Source: Bacteroidota bacterium (lineage in GTDB: Bacteria > Bacteroidota > Bacteroidia > UKL13-3). From it: a DNA stretch of 37,823 bases. The stretch lies in the NCBI GenBank assembly GCA_027482225.1, contig JAIXWD010000018.1:1-37823 (forward strand), read 5' to 3'. The notes beneath the pieces are model-generated. The model saw only the letters and a list, made by a program, of their open reading frames with translations. It was not told the DNA's origin and made no database searches. This document shows, in pieces, positions 28,301 through 37,823 of this stretch; position 1 is the stretch's first letter, and the number at the start of each line of letters is the position of its first letter. A program made the position numbers and the translations under genes.

Positions 28301-31300
28301 TTATCTGCCTTTAATTTGCCTAGCTTCATCTAAAGTAATCCGCTTGCCTTTGTAATAGGCAGATATAAATGAATCATTAAATCCTCTTGCACTTAACGCT
28401 GTGAGTGTTTTAATGCAATCGGCCTCGTTGGTAAATTGACCAGACATGATACGTACAAAATTGTTACCTATTACTTCGTACATAATATCGTTTATATTAT
28501 CAAATGCACTTGGGTTAAGCGGCTTCATGAATGCGCCAATTTGAACCGTGTATATTACTCCATTGGTATTAGTTACATCAATTTTGTCTCTTAAAAAATT
28601 ATCCAATACTTCGTCTGTTATATTAGCCTGTTCTGTATTTGATTTTAATGGAGACGTATTAGGCACATTATTATTTACAGTAGGCGCAGTGATAACGGTT
28701 GTGTTTTTACTAATGGCTGTTGTATCATTTGGTTTAACGTCACCGTTAGCGCCAAATTTCTTAACAGCTACTTTCCTTCTCTTTTCTATAATATTAAAAG
28801 TTACAAAAATACTTTCTACATCTTTGTCAATTTTAACTTGAATATTATTTTCCATCAAACGATACCTAGTACCCAAAACTTGTTCATCAAAAATTATTTT
28901 GTAATCACCATATGGTGCATAAAATACAAATGAGCCATCGTTTTCTGTTAGTGTATGAACTAACTTGCCATTTTCAGCAGAAATTTTTATCCCGCCTATT
29001 TCAGGTATCATTTCCATTTGTTGTGATAGTAAATCTCTATCAACAACAACCTTTCCATATATTTTAACCCCTTTAACAAATGGTATTGCTAAATATTCTT
29101 TGTCTATGTAATTACGAGCTATTACAATGGTATCTGAAATGTTAGGGAAGTAGTCTTTTACATCATCCAAACTAAACGCAGAAATTTCGTACATACCAGC
29201 TGGTATATTCAATAATTTTGCATCACCTTTTTGGTTGGTTAGTACATCCCAACCATTAATTCTTACAACTACATTTTCTAATAAATATTCGTCATTGTCA
29301 AATTTCTTATTGCCATTAATATCTACAAACGCTTTTATGTTTACCGAATAATAATTATTGTTCGAAAATGGATTCTTGATTCCAAATGTTTTACGTATAC
29401 CAAGATTAGCCATCACATTTTGAGAAACTGTTGTTTGGTCTTCTGATAAAACACCCGTACCGCCAGATGCCACAATCAATGATCCCGAATTATTTGTACT
29501 TGCTAAAAAATATCCAACTTGTAAACGGAATCGCCAATCATTATTGGTAAAAAAGTTTAGTTCAGGCATGTAACTAAGTGTTTGACGTTGGTTTAAGTCG
29601 TAATACGTATAGCTTAAAAATTGTTGCAAAATGAAGTGGGAGTCGCGGAATTGGTGTTGGTGATTTAAACTGATGTTAACCAATTGTGGCGAATAAAATA
29701 CATTATTACTGCTATATCCAGCTGATCCAATGTTACCATAAGAGTACCTTAAAAATCCAGATAGGACTTTATACCTCATCATCCCAAATAACTGCAAAAA
29801 GAAATAATTTCGTTCAGGACTTAAAAACATTGGTTTGCTATATCCCGCCATAACAGAACCGGAATACAACTTATTTTTCTCATATTCAAAACTACCCACA
29901 TTTAAGCTTATTCCTCTTGATCTTAATTCGTTGTTATTAATTACCGATGTATTATGAAATACTGAACCTGAAATAAAACTGCTGGCAAAAGATCGGTTTA
30001 TGGTTAATTGGTTGTTTAAATTAAAATAACTTGTGCCTATTGAGTTGTTTGGTGAAACAGAGAAATACAAAATGCGTTTATTAAAGTTGCTATTTAATTG
30101 TATACCGATTTTTTTTTCGGTATTGTAGCTCGAATTAAATGCACCTATCCAACCATCACCATTATTTAGGTAGCTAAAGTTTTTTGAAATATATGTTAAT
30201 GATGTACTGGTATTTAATTTTTTACTTTTTAAATATTGACCAGAATGTGAACCCCTAGCTATGAAACCAGTTGTGCTGTTTCCTGAATTTAAAATGTTGT
30301 TTGCAAGCATACCTCCCAAAGAAATGGAGTGGGTTTTTAGAAACGACTTGGTGGTATTTATACCCCAATTATCGGATGTATAACCGTTTGATCTATAATC
30401 TGCTTTGGAATATGCAGCATTAAGTGTAAATGTTTTTAGTGTTAATCCATAGGAAAATCCGAAACCTTCTGTATTGTTAGTACCTATAGGTGCCGTATTA
30501 AATAACCCCGGGCTTCTGGTATAAAAGGTACCAATACTATGTTTTTGGTTAATACGATAAATTGCCCCTGCTCCTTTTCCTGGTATAGGCATGGTTGCAT
30601 TGGCTTCAGGTATACCGCTTATGTTACCAAGAACTACAGTGTACTTTTTGTTGTTTATGCCAACAAAATAATTGGTATATTCTAAATAATTACTGTTGTA
30701 GTAATTTGATGTAAAAAATGTTTGAAGTTGGTAGTTTACCGAAGTACCATTCTCAAATTCGGTATTACCACGCATAAATATATTAGCCAACGGTGAACCG
30801 GTAGCTATACTATTAATATTGGCTTCTACCGTTAATGGGAAATAAGAGTAGCCGAATGGTGTAACTTTTATTTCATTTCCCAATTGAACAAAGTCTACTT
30901 TTTTATTTTTATGAATTGCTTTGTTTCCTAATGCTTTTGATTCGGTGGTTTTAATGTATATACTTTGTGTTTTTGTTTGGTCTGTTGAGGTAGGGCGGTG
31001 TGATTCTGTGTCAACAAAACGTTGGTTCCTGATTCCTTCCACACTGCTTACATTGTAGTTAAAAACGGTATCACCTCCTATTGGTAATACATAATCTACA
31101 AATTTACCTTGCACTATTTTTCCTGTGCTATCCATAACAGAAAGTGAAGACCTATAAGTTTCAATAGTCATTGATATGGGTTGGTCTTCATTGCCAACAT
31201 TAAACACACTAAAATTTAGTTTCGCCTTATTCTCTTTATTTTTAAAATATACTTTGTTGTTTTGTAAGAGGTTTATATCCCAATTACTGGTTCTGTGGCG

Positions 31301-31753
31301 AAAAGCAAAAAAACTGGATGAACCAATAAATGGTCCTGATTCATCATTAACATATACAGTTATTAAATATTTTGTATTGCCTTTAATCTTACCATTTGGA
31401 ATAATGGAAGCTGGAAGATACAACACCTCACCTCCTTTTATTTCGTAAACGCGATCAGAGAAGTTGGTCCTTTTCCATTCTGGAGGAGCAGAAACGTGAA
31501 TACGAATGTTTTTTGTTTTATCTTCTAGGTTGTACAGGATAATTGTTTTTGATATGATTTCTCCCGGTTGTATGGTTACTGTACTATCATCCATAAAAAA
31601 GGCAACCAAAGTGCCTTGTGGTCTTAATATGGGTATACCATTTATCATGGTATCCAATTGAGCGTATGCTTGATTATTGCATAGCAATATAAAAGCTAAA
31701 AGGAGCCAATTATAAAATTTCGTATGTAAATATGTCTTAATGGTTCGTGGCAT
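28301..31753 (-). CDS. Large usher-like outer-membrane barrel with NEW3-like N-terminus and SPOR-like C-terminus
   Basis: The 1150-residue protein is exported, with its signal ending near residue 31 ('NQAYAQ'). Residues 35-300 are Ig-like beta domains, the first similar to NEW3-type domains ('IQPGEIISKTIILYNLED'). Residues about 290-795 are alternating aromatic/polar strands ('SYGLTLKTFTLNAAYSKADY', 'GFLRYSYGNIGSAGYSSN'), as expected for an outer-membrane barrel. Residues about 800-870 are an SdrD/CNA-B-like domain with a calcium-like loop 'DINGNKKFDNDE'. About 895-965 is a carboxypeptidase-regulatory-like domain ('TENDGSFVFYAPYGDYKI'). A Thr/Asn-rich linker follows, then a SPOR-like domain ('YTVQIGAF', 'FVRIMSGQFTNEADC'). 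The gene starts directly after the minor subunit stop (TAAATG). An usher role is inferred from the neighbours: PapD-like chaperone and two pilin-like genes. Confidence 0.72.
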   Translation of the reverse strand: MPRTIKTYLHTKFYNWLLLAFILLCNNQAYAQLDTMINGIPILRPQGTLVAFFMDDSTVTIQPGEIISKTIILYNLEDKTKNIRIHVSAPPEWKRTNFSDRVYEIKGGEVLYLPASIIPNGKIKGNTKYLITVYVNDESGPFIGSSSFFAFRHRTSNWDINLLQNNKVYFKNKENKAKLNFSVFNVGNEDQPISMTIETYRSSLSVMDSTGKIVQGKFVDYVLPIGGDTVFNYNVSSVEGIRNQRFVDTESHRPTSTDQTKTQSIYIKTTESKALGNKAIHKNKKVDFVQLGNEIKVTPFGYSYFPLTVEANINSIATGSPLANIFMRGNTEFENGTSVNYQLQTFFTSNYYNSNYLEYTNYFVGINNKKYTVVLGNISGIPEANATMPIPGKGAGAIYRINQKHSIGTFYTRSPGLFNTAPIGTNNTEGFGFSYGLTLKTFTLNAAYSKADYRSNGYTSDNWGINTTKSFLKTHSISLGGMLANNILNSGNSTTGFIARGSHSGQYLKSKKLNTSTSLTYISKNFSYLNNGDGWIGAFNSSYNTEKKIGIQLNSNFNKRILYFSVSPNNSIGTSYFNLNNQLTINRSFASSFISGSVFHNTSVINNNELRSRGISLNVGSFEYEKNKLYSGSVMAGYSKPMFLSPERNYFFLQLFGMMRYKVLSGFLRYSYGNIGSAGYSSNNVFYSPQLVNISLNHQHQFRDSHFILQQFLSYTYYDLNQRQTLSYMPELNFFTNNDWRFRLQVGYFLASTNNSGSLIVASGGTGVLSEDQTTVSQNVMANLGIRKTFGIKNPFSNNNYYSVNIKAFVDINGNKKFDNDEYLLENVVVRINGWDVLTNQKGDAKLLNIPAGMYEISAFSLDDVKDYFPNISDTIVIARNYIDKEYLAIPFVKGVKIYGKVVVDRDLLSQQMEMIPEIGGIKISAENGKLVHTLTENDGSFVFYAPYGDYKIIFDEQVLGTRYRLMENNIQVKIDKDVESIFVTFNIIEKRRKVAVKKFGANGDVKPNDTTAISKNTTVITAPTVNNNVPNTSPLKSNTEQANITDEVLDNFLRDKIDVTNTNGVIYTVQIGAFMKPLNPSAFDNINDIMYEVIGNNFVRIMSGQFTNEADCIKTLTALSARGFNDSFISAYYKGKRITLDEARQIKGR

Positions 31754-32392
31754 TTAGTTTCCTTCGGTAATACAAAATTTTACATTTAGGCGGTAAATAC
31801 CTGGTTGAATGTTTAGTGTAGGTTGTAACCTGTAATCTATAGCAAAGCTGTATTCGCCAAAATTGTTTAAGTAACTCCCTGGTCTGTTTACATTGGTTGC
31901 AGAGCAAGTTCCACTGTTATTGCTAACACCAGGTGATTCTACAACATCTATATTATTTGCTGTTGTTGCTAAAGTTGCGTAATTGCTTCCGGTTAAACTG
32001 GTGTTACATTGGTTTCTTAACCGCATTTCTAATATGTTTACATTAGGAAATGGTGCTGTGTTCGTACCATAGGCATAAACTTGTTCCCATTCTGTTGGTA
32101 ATCCTCCGTTATTATCCATGTGTACATTTAGCCTCCATCTACAGTCAGCTAATGGTGCTACATTTTCTCCGACAATCATTTTTAGGATACTTGCACCAAA
32201 TACATTTCCTCCTGTTAAAAAATCTCCAAATGATTCAAACGTAAAGTTGATGGTTGGTTCTCCCGTTATTACACACTGAGAACCTGCACCCGTAGGGTTG
32301 CAGTTTGAAGTTAATGATACATTACAATTTGTTTGTGAGTAACATACATTACAAACAAATAGTATTATGCACAAGGATATAAACCATTTCAT
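31754..32392 (-). CDS. Minor pilin-like subunit, Cys-rich
   Basis: From the ATG at 32392 the product has 212 residues with a signal peptide ending near residue 20 ('NVCYSQ'). A longer frame from 32431 would start inside the hairpin at 32420-32453, so I reject it. The mature protein contains several cysteines, more than the major subunit. It shares a pattern with the upstream subunit: 'INFTFESFGDF...FGASILKM' near 52-70, then 'IDYRLQPTL', and a last strand 'PGIYRLNVKF'. The related subunit has 'LDFTFDEINEY...YGATILKV', 'MDYRILPNL' and 'PGVYTMYVKY'. It ends immediately before the usher-like gene. A tip or anchor subunit is inferred. Confidence 0.65.
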   Translation of the reverse strand: MKWFISLCIILFVCNVCYSQTNCNVSLTSNCNPTGAGSQCVITGEPTINFTFESFGDFLTGGNVFGASILKMIVGENVAPLADCRWRLNVHMDNNGGLPTEWEQVYAYGTNTAPFPNVNILEMRLRNQCNTSLTGSNYATLATTANNIDVVESPGVSNNSGTCSATNVNRPGSYLNNFGEYSFAIDYRLQPTLNIQPGIYRLNVKFCITEGN

Positions 32393-32419
32393 AACGGTAA
32401 AAAAACTTATATTAAAAAT

Positions 32420-32453
32420 AAACAAAGCCAAGCCGTTTGGCTTGGCTTTGTTT
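32420..32453 (-). terminator. Perfect hairpin between the two pilin-like genes
   Basis: The 15-base arms 32420-32434 and 32439-32453 are perfect reverse complements around a GTTT/AAAC loop, with core AAAGCCAAGCC. It begins 13 bases after the stop of the major subunit gene. In the direction of transcription it is followed by ATTTTTAATATAAG, a T-rich tract. It should act as a partial terminator or as an mRNA 3' stabiliser. Confidence 0.75.
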
Positions 32454-32465
32454 GTAATAAGTTGA

Positions 32466-33332
32466 TTATTGATCTTGAGCTAAAATGTATTTTACATACA
32501 TGGTGTAAACACCAGGATTTGCATAAACCGAACCATTAGCTAAAAGTCCAGATGCGCCATCTGCATTAGTTACGTATGGTGCAGTTGCATTTGTTGCATT
32601 AGTAGGAATATGAGCTGGGAAAGTAACAGGTAAATTTGGTAAAATGCGGTAATCCATTACATAACGGTAAGAGCTTGTGTTTGGATTTAATCCACCAATT
32701 AAATAGCTTCCACCAATAACAGAGCAATTAGCTACTACTCCTGTTCCACCCGCAATGTACTTTTCTGATGTACCTACTACAGCTGTAGAAGTTGGAGCAG
32801 TATATGGTGTTCCAGGAGCTGGGCAATAAACTGTGTTATTTCCTGCTGACATGGTTGATGTACCAGGGATAGTTATTGGTTGAAATGGTGCTGAATAATC
32901 ACTTGATAGTGCCACAGTATTAACGCAACCACCAGCAACTGAAGGATTAGCCGGGAACTGACGTAATTCTAGTGCTGTTAACGGAATTTCATCAACTGCT
33001 TGTGCTGAAGGTGCAGCATATTCTACAGGGTTATCCCATAAAAATGAACCTTCTTGTCCTTGTGATAAACCTGCTGCCCATAAATCGAAACTTACAGTAG
33101 AACTTACTTTTAAAATAGTGGCACCATACTTTACAATGCCTGCGTAGTATTCGTTAATTTCATCAAATGTAAAATCCAATTGATCTGGACCTTCCATTTT
33201 TAATTGAAGGATTGGTTGTAAGTCCATGGTAATGGTTACATTCTTCTCTTCTTGCAATTGAGCAAATGCCGCATGCGACACTACTATGGCTCCTAGAGCC
33301 AATAGTGCTTTTCTTAGGGGGTTGTTTTTCAT
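32466..33332 (-). CDS. Major pilin-like subunit
   Basis: The product has 288 residues with a signal peptide ending near 'HAAFAQ' (about 24). The mature chain is beta-rich and low in Cys. It opens with 'NVTITMDLQPILQLKM', then 'LDFTFDEINEY', 'YGATILKVSSTVSFDLWAAG', and closes 'MDYRILPNL' with a final strand 'PGVYTMYVKYILAQDQ'. The centre is Pro/Thr/Ala-rich and lacks recognisable motifs. The final strand ends four or five residues from the C-terminus, as in many fimbrial subunits, but no classical pilin motif is certain. Its position after the PapD-like chaperone and before a strong hairpin suggests it is the abundant structural subunit. I do not recognise a named family. Confidence 0.65.
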   Translation of the reverse strand: MKNNPLRKALLALGAIVVSHAAFAQLQEEKNVTITMDLQPILQLKMEGPDQLDFTFDEINEYYAGIVKYGATILKVSSTVSFDLWAAGLSQGQEGSFLWDNPVEYAAPSAQAVDEIPLTALELRQFPANPSVAGGCVNTVALSSDYSAPFQPITIPGTSTMSAGNNTVYCPAPGTPYTAPTSTAVVGTSEKYIAGGTGVVANCSVIGGSYLIGGLNPNTSSYRYVMDYRILPNLPVTFPAHIPTNATNATAPYVTNADGASGLLANGSVYANPGVYTMYVKYILAQDQ

Positions 33333-33354
33333 ATAATCTATTTGTTTAGATGTT

Positions 33355-34257
33355 TTATTTTTTAAGTGGATTTAGCGGTGTAATTTCAAATTCTATTTCT
33401 GCTGCATCCAATGATTCGTCACTTCCAAAATCAAGTACTACCGAACCAATGTATTTGCCCGATGGTAATTCTCCTGGAAGCTGAAACTCGAAATTGCGCT
33501 CCATCTTGGGGAATATGGTAAATTGCTTTGATGATAGTTTTGTTTTATATCCGTTATTGATGTTGGTTAATTCTATGTACATTTTTGAAAACCCTAAACC
33601 ATCACCAATATTCTTTGCACTGGCGTAAATAGTACCACGGCTGGTTATATTGTTATTAGATTGGTCGTTTGATATATATTTAAGCTTAGTTAATTCAAGC
33701 TTATTTACTTTTACATTTGGTGGGTTTTGAAACATATAAACAGCGAAACCAAAAGTAGGTATAATGCCCATAGCCATATTTTTACCATCGGCATTTTTGG
33801 GTGTGATGGCCTGTCGCTCTCTCATTTCATCAATAACTAACATAGCCCAACCTGCTCTATATGCATTAGCTGAATCCGGAACTGCTAATGTAATGGCAAT
33901 TTTTTTTGCTTCACCTGGTCTTAATTCAACAAAACTTGGCGATATGGTAATCCATTTTGATAATCCATATTCATGAAAGATGTTAGTAGGCATCTGTTTA
34001 ACAGTTCCTTTATCATTCATCTCGTAATCAGCAACACTAATTTTAAATTTTTCAGGCTTTTTGGTATCATTTGTTATGGTTACATATTTAACATCACTAT
34101 AGCCGGGTATAGTAGTAAATTTTACCATAGCAGGAGCAACTGCAACTCCCATATCTGTTATGGTATCTTTAATGATTGGTTTTGGAGTTTCTTGAGCACC
34201 AACATTAAAGCTGAAGCTAACAGAAAATAGGCAAAAAATAATGGTCAGTTTTTTCAT
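33355..34257 (-). CDS. PapD-like periplasmic pilus-assembly chaperone
   Basis: The 300-residue exported protein has a signal peptide (about 1-21, 'NVGAQ'). The mature part has two Ig-like domains. The first contains 'VKYVTITNDTKKPEKFKISV', 'KWITISPSFVELRPGEAKKI' and 'RAGWAMLVIDEMRERQ', a layout seen in PapD/FimC-like chaperones and in related Bacteroidota Ig proteins. The second carries 'YASAKNIGDGLGFSKMYIEL' and 'FQLPGELPSGKYIGSVVLDF'. PapD family chaperones bind subunits by donor strand complementation in the periplasm; that function is inferred here. It is the first gene of the four-gene set and is separated from the major subunit by 22 bases. A TACATTCG sequence upstream (minus strand, about 34275-34282) weakly resembles a -7 box. 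Confidence 0.72.
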   Translation of the reverse strand: MKKLTIIFCLFSVSFSFNVGAQETPKPIIKDTITDMGVAVAPAMVKFTTIPGYSDVKYVTITNDTKKPEKFKISVADYEMNDKGTVKQMPTNIFHEYGLSKWITISPSFVELRPGEAKKIAITLAVPDSANAYRAGWAMLVIDEMRERQAITPKNADGKNMAMGIIPTFGFAVYMFQNPPNVKVNKLELTKLKYISNDQSNNNITSRGTIYASAKNIGDGLGFSKMYIELTNINNGYKTKLSSKQFTIFPKMERNFEFQLPGELPSGKYIGSVVLDFGSDESLDAAEIEFEITPLNPLKK

Positions 34258-34470: not shown

Positions 34471-37400
34471 TTAGTTCTTCACAACTTTTCGTGTTACCAT
34501 CCATGCGTTGTTTTTGTCTTTTATTTGAACAATATAAACACCTTGTTCAAGTCCAGTTAAATCTAATACTTCATTTAATTTACCAAAACCATAAATAGTT
34601 TTTGTACTAACAAGTTTCATTTGTGTATCGTAAATTTTTACTTCAGCACCTCCATTTAGCACTTCCACATCCGACCAAATCTTTACATAATTTTCTGTAG
34701 GTATTGGAGCCATAAATACGTAATCGCTTACAGCACTTTGTATGGTGTTTTCTTCACTTAATTGCCTTACGCCCGAGTAGGTAAATGTATTGTCTATGTC
34801 AACTAGTTTTAATCGGTAATAATTTACTAATCCTTTAACAAATCCAGCATCAGTATAGGCGTAGTTTACTTGAGCATTGCTATTACCTTTTGCTTTTATA
34901 GTTTCTAGTTTTTTATAATTAACGTTATCTAAACTATGTTCAACTTCAAAACCTTTGCTGTTTTTTTCTGTAGCTGTTGTCCAACTCAATACTGCTTGGT
35001 TTTGGTTATTTAACGTTGCTATAAATTTACTTATAGTTACTGGTAAAGCGTTTGTATTTTCAATAATTATCCTAAACCTATTATTGCCAAATGTAGCTGC
35101 ATTACTTGAGGTGATGTTAAAATTATAAACACCATTTTGTATAATAGGTGTAACGCTATTAAGGAAATTATCTTTCAGGTAAAAGTTAACTCCAGCTGCA
35201 TTCGGTATGGTATTAAACGTAAATGTGTGTAACCCATTTGTGCCTCCGGTATAAAGTTTAATGGTATCAGTAACACTTAAGCTTAATGGCCTTGCATCTA
35301 ATGCGTGCGCAATATTATCTGTTCCAAAACTATATACATCGTTTGCGCCATTGTTCATTCGTTTAATATCATATTTATCATCCCTACTTGTAGCGTTTGC
35401 AATAAACTTTAAAACAAATTGATCGCTGTTAAACGCATCACTACGCATGGTCATTCTTAATTCATCATTGGCATTGCTGGTTTTAAACAATGAAGTAGTA
35501 GATGTAGTTGCTTTAAATGATTCATCAAAGGTTAGAACAGGAAGTGTACCAGTAGCCTTGACAAAGAATGCTTGTCCAGGATTAATTATACCATTCGCAA
35601 CTGGACCTAAACCTGAATTACTTATTGCATTGTAACTTGAATAACCGTTACTAACTGGGTCGTATATGTAAATATTAGGTTCTATTTTACTGTAAAACGT
35701 TCCAGAAAATCCTGTGTTGCCTGTCCTGTACATTGCACCCCAATCGTAGGCTGCAGCATAAGGGTTACCCAACAAATTCCAGCCATCATTAGCTAAGATA
35801 CCTGTAGAATTAAAAAATACAGGCATTAGTACGGCTTGCTGGTTTAAAGAACCTGAAACATCTAAAGTAACTTCATTTTGGGTTGTAATGGCACCTGTCA
35901 AACGTCCAGGATCTCTATCACCTCTAATAAATACGCGGTAACCTTTTCCTATTGTAAATGACATGGTGTTGTTGCTTGGTGCTGTCCAGCCTTGGTTTAA
36001 ATCTCCAGTTGCTGCTTCATTGTAATGAAAAACACTTGGCGAGTTATTACTAGTTGCATCAAAACCATTTGTTGCACCGCCTGTCCCTGTAATAAAAATA
36101 TCGTCTTGCCATTGTGATAGATTACCCGCAGCTATTGGTGAGGCTAAAAACCTCCACCTTCTTTGACTTGATGGAATGTAACGTTGCACTGTTACGCTAC
36201 CGGTTATGCTTGCATCTGGTGTCATCGCATCAACAAAAGCTGTACCTGTTGCACTTGATATAAGTGTTAAATTTCCTCCTGTTGCAAATATTCCATCTTC
36301 ACAAGTTAATCTGTCTGTTATGCTTAATGGTCCTCCTAAAGTTACGGTACCGCTATTGGTAATTTTTATACGTGCTGCAGTATTGGATGTAAATAATCCT
36401 GATGGAATAGTTTGGTTTGTAATTCCAAAGAATTCCACTTCACCAGAGGTATTGTTAATATTACCCGTACCACTTATGCCATCTCTAATTCGGAGTGTTC
36501 CACCGTTAACAAGTATAGTTTTTCCTGCTCCAATAGTTATTCCATTTGCCACCAATGTTTTTCCAGCACTAACTACTGGACTTATACCAGTTGATATATC
36601 AACAGGAGTTGATGCTGTTGGAATAGTATTACAGCTCCAGTTACCTGCATTATTTGGATCACTATCTAAAGTTCCAAGCCATGTGCCCACAGGGGTTATG
36701 GTTGCAACTGTTGCAGCAGATACTGCAGAGCTACAAGCACTCTGTATAGCTACCACAGTATAACTTCCAGCTGTAGTTGCAGTATATGTAGCACCAGTAT
36801 CAATGTCAGCACCATCTTTTTTCCATAGGTAAGTAGCACCTCCGCTTGCAGTTAACAATTGGTTAATACCCGTGCAGAAAGAAACAGTTCCACTCGGGCT
36901 AATGCTGGCAGAAGGAACACTATTCACTGTTACCACAATTGGAGTGGCAGCTGCTGCAGATGTACATCCTTTATCACTAATTGCAAACACATCATAACTA
37001 CCAGATGTTGTTACAACCAAAGGATTAGTAGTTGAGAAGTTAACCGCATCTTTCCTCCACTGATAGGTTGTTCCACCCGATGCAGTTAAACTTACATTGT
37101 CTCCATTACAGAAGGTTGTTGGTCCGCCAGGGGCTGAACCAGCAGTTGGCAATGAATTAATTGTTAAAGTTGCTATGGCAGATGTGGTATTACCGCAAGC
37201 GTTTGTTAAAACAACCGTGTAATCATCTGCATCGGTAAGGGTTAAATTTGTTAATACAAGTTCATTGCTGTTTGTTCCAACATTGGTTATACCTTTTTTC
37301 CATTGGTAACTTACCACATCAGTTGCAGTAACACTTAATGTGATGTTACCTCCAATACATCTTTCAGCAGATGCAGGTTGTGCACTAATTGCAGGTAAAG

Positions 37401-37823
37401 GATTAACTATAATTTCTTGGTGGTTTGAATTTGTTGAAGGACAAACACCATTTTTTACCACTGCCCTAAAACGGGTTGTTGCAGTTAAATTGCCAGGTAT
37501 TTCTGTTGACGTAACATTTGAAATTGTATTCCAAGTGCTAAAAGGGCTTACAGCGCTTTCCCAACTAATTACTCCACCAGTTTCTCCACTTAATGTTAAT
37601 GTACCTGGAGCAGTTCCCGTACAAATTGGTGTGCTACCACCACTTACCGAACCTCCAACTGACGCAGGTGTTACGGTAACAGTTGTGGTCGAAGAAGAAT
37701 CAGAAGCACATGTTCCATTTTTTACCACTGCTTTAAATTGAGTAGTGGCAGTTAATGCTCCAGAGGTATATGTTGCATTGGTGTTAGCAATGGTATTCCA
37801 TGAACTAAATGGCGACACCGCAC
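34471..37823 (-). CDS. Large T9SS surface protein with Ig-like repeats, N-terminus beyond the window edge
   Basis: The frame is open to the right edge, so the N-terminus is missing. The residue after the edge codon continues a repeat ('AVSPFSSWNTI', matching 'AVSPFSTWNTI' about 98 residues later), which shows that the start lies outside. At least 1117 residues are present. The N-terminal visible part has about five Ig-like units ('TLTLSGETGGVISWESA', 'CxGxNVSLTASGGTTYQWRKD', 'CSSAVSAATVATITP'). A beta-helix-like region follows (about 400-530, 'NTIPTASTPVDISTG', 'GTLRIRDGISGTGNINNTSG'), then a domain starting 'VQRYIPSSQRRWRFLASPI', common in Bacteroidota cargo proteins. Another Ig-like segment has 'AVLSWTTATEKNSKGFEVEH'. 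The C-terminus is a T9SS type A domain ('VYIVQIKDKNNAWMVTRKVV'). Surface adhesion is inferred. Confidence 0.9.
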   Translation of the reverse strand, partial: AVSPFSSWNTIANTNATYTSGALTATTQFKAVVKNGTCASDSSSTTTVTVTPASVGGSVSGGSTPICTGTAPGTLTLSGETGGVISWESAVSPFSTWNTISNVTSTEIPGNLTATTRFRAVVKNGVCPSTNSNHQEIIVNPLPAISAQPASAERCIGGNITLSVTATDVVSYQWKKGITNVGTNSNELVLTNLTLTDADDYTVVLTNACGNTTSAIATLTINSLPTAGSAPGGPTTFCNGDNVSLTASGGTTYQWRKDAVNFSTTNPLVVTTSGSYDVFAISDKGCTSAAAATPIVVTVNSVPSASISPSGTVSFCTGINQLLTASGGATYLWKKDGADIDTGATYTATTAGSYTVVAIQSACSSAVSAATVATITPVGTWLGTLDSDPNNAGNWSCNTIPTASTPVDISTGISPVVSAGKTLVANGITIGAGKTILVNGGTLRIRDGISGTGNINNTSGEVEFFGITNQTIPSGLFTSNTAARIKITNSGTVTLGGPLSITDRLTCEDGIFATGGNLTLISSATGTAFVDAMTPDASITGSVTVQRYIPSSQRRWRFLASPIAAGNLSQWQDDIFITGTGGATNGFDATSNNSPSVFHYNEAATGDLNQGWTAPSNNTMSFTIGKGYRVFIRGDRDPGRLTGAITTQNEVTLDVSGSLNQQAVLMPVFFNSTGILANDGWNLLGNPYAAAYDWGAMYRTGNTGFSGTFYSKIEPNIYIYDPVSNGYSSYNAISNSGLGPVANGIINPGQAFFVKATGTLPVLTFDESFKATTSTTSLFKTSNANDELRMTMRSDAFNSDQFVLKFIANATSRDDKYDIKRMNNGANDVYSFGTDNIAHALDARPLSLSVTDTIKLYTGGTNGLHTFTFNTIPNAAGVNFYLKDNFLNSVTPIIQNGVYNFNITSSNAATFGNNRFRIIIENTNALPVTISKFIATLNNQNQAVLSWTTATEKNSKGFEVEHSLDNVNYKKLETIKAKGNSNAQVNYAYTDAGFVKGLVNYYRLKLVDIDNTFTYSGVRQLSEENTIQSAVSDYVFMAPIPTENYVKIWSDVEVLNGGAEVKIYDTQMKLVSTKTIYGFGKLNEVLDLTGLEQGVYIVQIKDKNNAWMVTRKVVKN

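Follow-up and report, generated by a model that had tools for sequence, protein, structure and literature searches.

A probable chaperone-usher pilus operon in Bacteroidota with a pilin homologous to TLP-1 fibril proteins

Gene content of the locus

The DNA analysed here, referred to below as the window, is a stretch of 37,823 nucleotides (contig JAIXWD010000018.1, assembly GCA_027482225.1) from a Bacteroidota bacterium. Four genes on its minus strand, at 28301-34257, encode in order a chaperone, a first subunit, a second subunit and a barrel protein (Table 1), and this set occurs in a single copy in the 2.7 Mb genome. All four products bear signal peptides; export by Sec would follow, although secretion is inferred. 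The initial annotation, made from sequence alone, had described four co-directional genes encoding an exported two-Ig protein with PapD-like motifs, two subunits with similar ends, and an 1150-residue barrel-like protein. These coordinates and the strand held, as did the Ig fold of the first product, whose structural neighbours are WxLIP and PapD-type chaperones (no Pfam PapD_N match was found in the genome). The two subunits are homologous to each other (hhalign 99.1%), and a barrel is predicted at residues ~304-793 of the fourth product. The listed start of the second subunit is a TTG (31754-32431, 225 aa), but the ATG at 32392 is likelier because the part upstream of it falls within a hairpin. 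This hairpin between the subunit genes and the C-terminal SPOR domain of the barrel protein had been omitted from the annotation.

Upstream of the operon on the same strand, at 34471-37818 of the window, lies a gene for an Ig-repeat protein of 1115 aa whose tail is a sorting signal for type IX secretion; this gene adjoins the operon in two close relatives too and not in others. No match to the Bacteroidota promoter consensus was found near the operon; the sole match in the window was far off and below chance expectation.

Table 1 Features of the locus, with positions in the window.
Feature	Position	Strand	Basis
Periplasmic chaperone (predicted), two Ig-like domains and signal peptide, 300 aa	33355..34257	(-)	Foldseek and weak Pfam matches
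Subunit 1, major pilin, 288 aa including signal peptide; mature protein starts at Q25	32466..33332	(-)	TLP-1b homology and fold
Second subunit, minor, probably terminal, 212 aa from ATG	31754..32392	(-)	Homologous to pilin, no donor-strand motif
Outer-membrane usher (predicted), 1150 aa	28301..31753	(-)	Foldseek ranks 1-6 FimD
Predicted chaperone donor strand (G1-like), residues 161-177, MAMGIIPTFGFAVYMFQ, then NPP	33727..33777	(-)	Strand in model and homologue alignment
Pilin N-terminal donor-strand motif (putative), NVTITMDLQP, residues 31-40	33213..33242	(-)	Motif distribution
Terminator-like hairpin 3' of pilin gene, 15-bp stem, 4-nt loop, T-rich tail	32420..32453	(-)	Folding energy and recurrence
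Usher beta-barrel (predicted), residues ~304-793, ~26 strands, no inserted plug-sized domain	29375..30844	(-)	Secondary structure of model
Usher C-terminal SPOR domain, residues ~1051-1148	28310..28603	(-)	Profile seeded from four such tails

The major subunit shares homology with a filament protein of known structure

A phmmer search of the PDB with subunit 1 matched entries 9ikk (7e-34) and 9ikj (3e-33), each with 16 chains, and the profile search gave 2e-51. The fold search names these entries as TLP-1b (9ikk) and TLP-1a (9ikj), which we take to be the CryoSeek pond-water fibrils. The window pilin was 36% identical to TLP-1 across its entire mature length, and the folds aligned with Z 17.1–17.2 (3.6 Å, 224–225 residues). 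Homology of the pilin to a solved filament protein is shown by these computations. TLP-1 fibrils are reported to be held together by donor-strand exchange, and a 2026 review stated that the identity of such filaments from ponds could not be established. The closest operon pilins, from operons in genomes labelled Chitinophagaceae, were 55–59% identical to TLP-1b. When the exact source of TLP-1 was sought in the nearest family (87 genomes), the best identity was 59% and no identical protein appeared; the deposited TLP-1 sequences may have been read from the map.

The NVTITMDLQP motif was present in 76 of 88 subunit-1-like proteins and in none of 70 subunit-2 proteins. Together with the homology to a filament protein, this computed distribution fits missing-strand subunits with an N-terminal extension, with strand exchange inferred and contacts not inspected. 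The motif was coil, not strand, in a model of the pilin in tandem with the chaperone.

The second subunit and the intergenic hairpin

The second subunit also showed weak homology to TLP-1 (2e-5). It is likely the terminal (tip) subunit since it lacks the donor-strand motif and since, in four to six loci, a 440–460 aa protein with extra sequence takes its place; the tip position remains an inference. In a variant of this reading, which we consider less likely, it would sit at the base or act as a terminator, as FimI or PapH do. In favor of the variant, its gene adjoins the usher gene (median gap ~6 bases), and a missing donor strand suits either end, depending on the direction of growth. Against it, the extra sequence of the 440–460 aa replacement is as expected of an adhesin.

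The hairpin after the pilin stop codon has an MFE of −24.7 kcal/mol (z −9.5). Terminator-like hairpins were found at the pilin/second-subunit junction in 50 of 65 loci, compared with 0/62 and 2/66 at the other two junctions, and z was below −2 at the former in 63 of 65 loci. The hairpin and its recurrence are thus computed results, and its role is inferred: it would let the pilin be made in large amounts and the usher in small ones.

The two-Ig protein has a predicted PapD-type fold

The chaperone structure was taken from an artificial tandem, obtained by translating the adjacent chaperone and pilin genes of L026, a near-identical genome, with read-through (code 6), and modelled with 110 aligned rows (pLDDT 77, pTM 0.81). 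The model comprised two Ig-like domains in the chaperone part, and we regard the protein as an Ig-fold protein with a predicted PapD-type fold. Foldseek with the tandem returned TLP-1 for the pilin part and then, for the chaperone, WxLIP (1e-13), followed by CfaA (7e-10), CsuC (2e-9), Caf1M and FimC. The VIA alignments gave Z 11.9 with WxLIP (7.5 Å, 230 aligned) and Z 11.2 with CfaA (4.3 Å, 198 aligned).

Sequence matches were weak throughout. Among 13 chaperone homologues, Pfam matched WxLIP_PGBD in 11 and fn3_5 in all 13, all weakly, and PapD_N in one (5e-4). Neither PapD_N nor Usher of Pfam gave a sequence match in the window's own genome, and hhalign of the chaperone profile against E. coli K-12 FimC was not significant. 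NCBIfam matches to S-layer-like proteins were weak. The chaperone profile also matched synaptotagmin C2, which was judged to be chance.

The G1-like segment forms one 17-residue strand in the model (139–155 in the tandem), with alternating hydrophobic residues and an invariant Q-x-P at its end in 57 homologues. The classical carboxylate anchor, a conserved Arg and Lys on strands A1 and G1, was sought in the chaperone homologues and no conserved basic residue was found there; archaic chaperones likewise lack the A1/G1 Arg-Lys pair (PMC4654587). Donor-strand complementation of the pilin by the chaperone is possible on the basis of the predicted model, which suggests and does not show it. The tandem is an artificial single chain in which linker proximity may aid docking, and its contacts were not inspected.

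An alternative is that the barrel exports subunits that polymerise without chaperone-usher strand exchange, like archaeal threads, and that the Ig protein is a WxLIP-like surface scaffold. In its favor, WxLIP outscores every chaperone-usher chaperone as a fold match, and usher-free donor-strand filaments are known in the archaeal threads (PMC9715654). However, most of the ranks just below WxLIP go to chaperone-usher chaperones, the chaperone gene travels with a usher-fold barrel, and conservation extends to the G1-like strand. We consider this alternative very unlikely.

The barrel protein resembles ushers in fold

The usher model was of middling quality (pLDDT 73.8, pTM 0.49). Its layout comprised Ig-like domains (50–240), a barrel of ~26 strands, two beta domains, a linker and the SPOR domain. 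The secondary structure of the model, a prediction only, contained no plug domain and no loop longer than ~20 residues within the barrel. The ushers of chaperone-usher systems have, by contrast, a 24-strand plugged barrel.

Foldseek placed FimD at ranks 1–6 (3e-13 to 7e-11) and PapC at 9e-9, with TonB-dependent receptors only lower, and the TM-scores to FimD were low (0.27/0.40). VIA with the barrel alone placed MtrB first (Z 20.6, 5.2 Å, 441 residues), followed closely by porins and TonB-dependent receptors, which scored about as well as ushers. The VIA alignments with FimD and PapC reached through the C-terminal beta domains (301–989, Z 14–15.7). With moderate confidence, the barrel and C-terminal beta domains are predicted to form an outer-membrane usher fold.

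Sequence comparison gave no such match. PDB searches with the usher, as single sequence and as profile, returned nothing, and none of 296 genomes of the phylum exceeded the Pfam Usher cut-off, with no match in the window's genome. The SPOR profile matched nine of 68 ushers, and Pfam SPOR two of 13 usher homologues.

It could also be argued that the barrel serves as a transporter or a different type of secretion channel, with the subunits belonging to the cell wall or an S-layer and forming no pilus. The barrel-only VIA result, the SPOR tail and the weak S-layer-like matches of the chaperone favor this explanation. Against it stand the top Foldseek ranks of FimD and PapC, the alignments continuing through the C-terminal beta domains, and the homology of a subunit to a filament protein, and we regard it as very unlikely.

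Conservation and distribution of the operon

Scanning genome contigs with the pilin yielded 80 loci before removal of recognised duplicates, of which a single one, in a Chlorobiota MAG, was not labelled Bacteroidota. The order chaperone, pilin, second subunit, usher was found in 50 of about 80 non-duplicate loci (recognised duplicates removed). The remaining loci were rearranged (chaperone after usher, pilin first, or duplicated pilin) or cut by contig ends. Of the 73 loci that contain the usher, 68 also carry chaperone and pilin. Both gene content and order recur in many loci of Bacteroidota at usher identities down to ~19–30%, so the locus is not a chance arrangement; this much is shown by computation.

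In 41 related genomes, usher and chaperone searches matched the same genomes, barring cut contigs and one distant case, and the operon was found in 16 of 64 genomes of the order. In the usher tree, the window grouped with one genome of the same genus and one from another family (SH-aLRT 97–100), separate from the other operons of its genus. This placement is consistent with horizontal transfer or old paralogy, both of which are only possibilities. At E ≤ 1e-20, the usher profile matched three of 296 genomes of the phylum, with two candidates scored per genome, and on this search its distribution looks patchy, with few occurrences in well-studied lineages. Cultured carriers include strains of Wenyingzhuangia heitensis and W. 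aestuarii (L081 and L087), making the system directly testable.

A gene resembling FKBP-type prolyl isomerases was observed between usher and chaperone at L103:13631-15325, L106:10136-11695, L113:4540-6090 and L117:8299-9864; its cluster covers 11 loci, several of them close to the TLP-1-like branch. Very divergent relatives were seen in two further genomes (L126:4131-8640 and L127:4664-10349), with ushers of 918–948 aa, a chaperone, and short subunits barely recognised by the pilin profile.

A second usher-like system in the phylum

Three genomes of another family gave Pfam Usher matches below the cut-off (E 1.9e-5 and 3.2e-4). Two loci were inspected, and in both a chaperone and small subunits adjoin the usher-like gene. 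One of them matched the window-family profiles in hhalign (chaperone 95.0%, usher 91.9%). Since this system weakly resembles both Pfam Usher and the window family, we lean towards the window family being a divergent branch of one superfamily, with common descent with known ushers favored.

The second system was recorded at L144:5391-10392 and L145:4598-10778, with usher-like proteins of 994–1171 aa and weak Pfam Usher matches, and one of these ushers had a strong SPOR match in three stretches (5.5e-23).

Proposed assembly pathway

Because fold, gene content and pilin homology agree, we conclude that the four genes most probably make a surface pilus through the chaperone-usher pathway and represent a divergent, Bacteroidota-centred branch of it. 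Its assembly, the strand exchange and the presence of fibres on cells are inferences. By Pfam the membership fails, and the plug and the classical anchor are missing.

The chaperone-usher logic that the initial annotation had proposed for a pilus or surface fibre is supported. Results that would have refuted it (no Ig-fold chaperone, no missing-strand subunits, a barrel clearly of another family, no conserved gene order) were each sought and none was found, the evidence on missing-strand subunits being the homology of subunit 1 to a solved filament protein. The gene order is conserved in other Bacteroidota, and a clear TonB-dependent receptor barrel was not borne out, with FimD and PapC the best Foldseek matches. 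The suggested profile comparison of the usher with E. coli K-12 FimD was not significant in hhalign, and the match to FimD and PapC lies in the fold instead. That the usher was independently elaborated, as also claimed, is not established; the second system favors a divergent branch of one superfamily.

In the proposed pathway, Sec would export all four products. In the periplasm, the two-Ig chaperone would lend its long G1-like strand to the incomplete subunit fold, and chaperone-subunit complexes would go to the usher, a putative outer-membrane barrel of ~26 strands with Ig-like domains before it and two small beta domains behind. Its SPOR domain may anchor it to peptidoglycan. At the pore, the NVTITMDLQP strand of the incoming pilin would displace the chaperone strand in the pilin already in the fibre, and this exchange would yield a TLP-1-like helical fibre. 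The second subunit, without a donor strand, would probably be terminal (tip).

Comparison with known systems

The window pilin is homologous to the TLP-1a and TLP-1b proteins over its entire mature length and has the same fold (Z 17). For TLP-1 the fibre alone is known, whereas its maker and assembly genes are not. Unidentified environmental fibrils can thereby be tied to a gene and a host group, and to machinery that probably assembles them. In the open-access literature searched, we found no paper tying chaperone-usher pili to Bacteroidota or naming the source of TLP-1.

Type V (FimA/Mfa1) pili of Bacteroidales are Bacteroidota pili that use donor-strand exchange; they are lipoprotein-derived and protease-matured, and are not known to use a chaperone or usher. 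By contrast, the window pilin and others of its type have a signal peptide ending in A-Q and no lipobox Cys.

With the archaic and alternative chaperone-usher pathways (Csu, CFA/I) the window system shares a two-Ig chaperone with a donor strand, subunits, and a usher-fold barrel with C-terminal beta domains, all in one cluster. It differs from them in the absence of a Pfam-level match, a larger pilin, ~26 predicted strands without a plug, and a SPOR tail on some of the ushers (9/68). Published occurrences of the archaic kind lie in Proteobacteria, Cyanobacteria and Deinococcus-Thermus (PMC4654587), and the present operon would extend chaperone-usher pili to a phylum outside their published range.

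In the WxL/WxLIP clusters of Gram-positive bacteria, a two-Ig protein of the same fold is encoded beside two WxL proteins, and an AlphaFold2 prediction has WxLIP inserting a hairpin strand into WxL (PMC10599100). These clusters differ in having no outer membrane or usher, and WxLIP has a transmembrane helix. A WxL domain has two W-x-L motifs. Both window subunits contain one W-x-L motif, with the Trp present in 54 of 62 pilins and all 70 second subunits (one motif scored), and no Pfam WxL domain was found in the window subunits. A bolder reading, which is no more than possible, is that the TLP-1 pond fibrils come from this type of operon, that it defines a class of plug-less ~26-strand ushers, and that, with WxL/WxLIP, it points to one old chaperone-subunit pair common to systems with and without an outer membrane. 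A barrel that is wider and plug-less would be a new case of usher gating.
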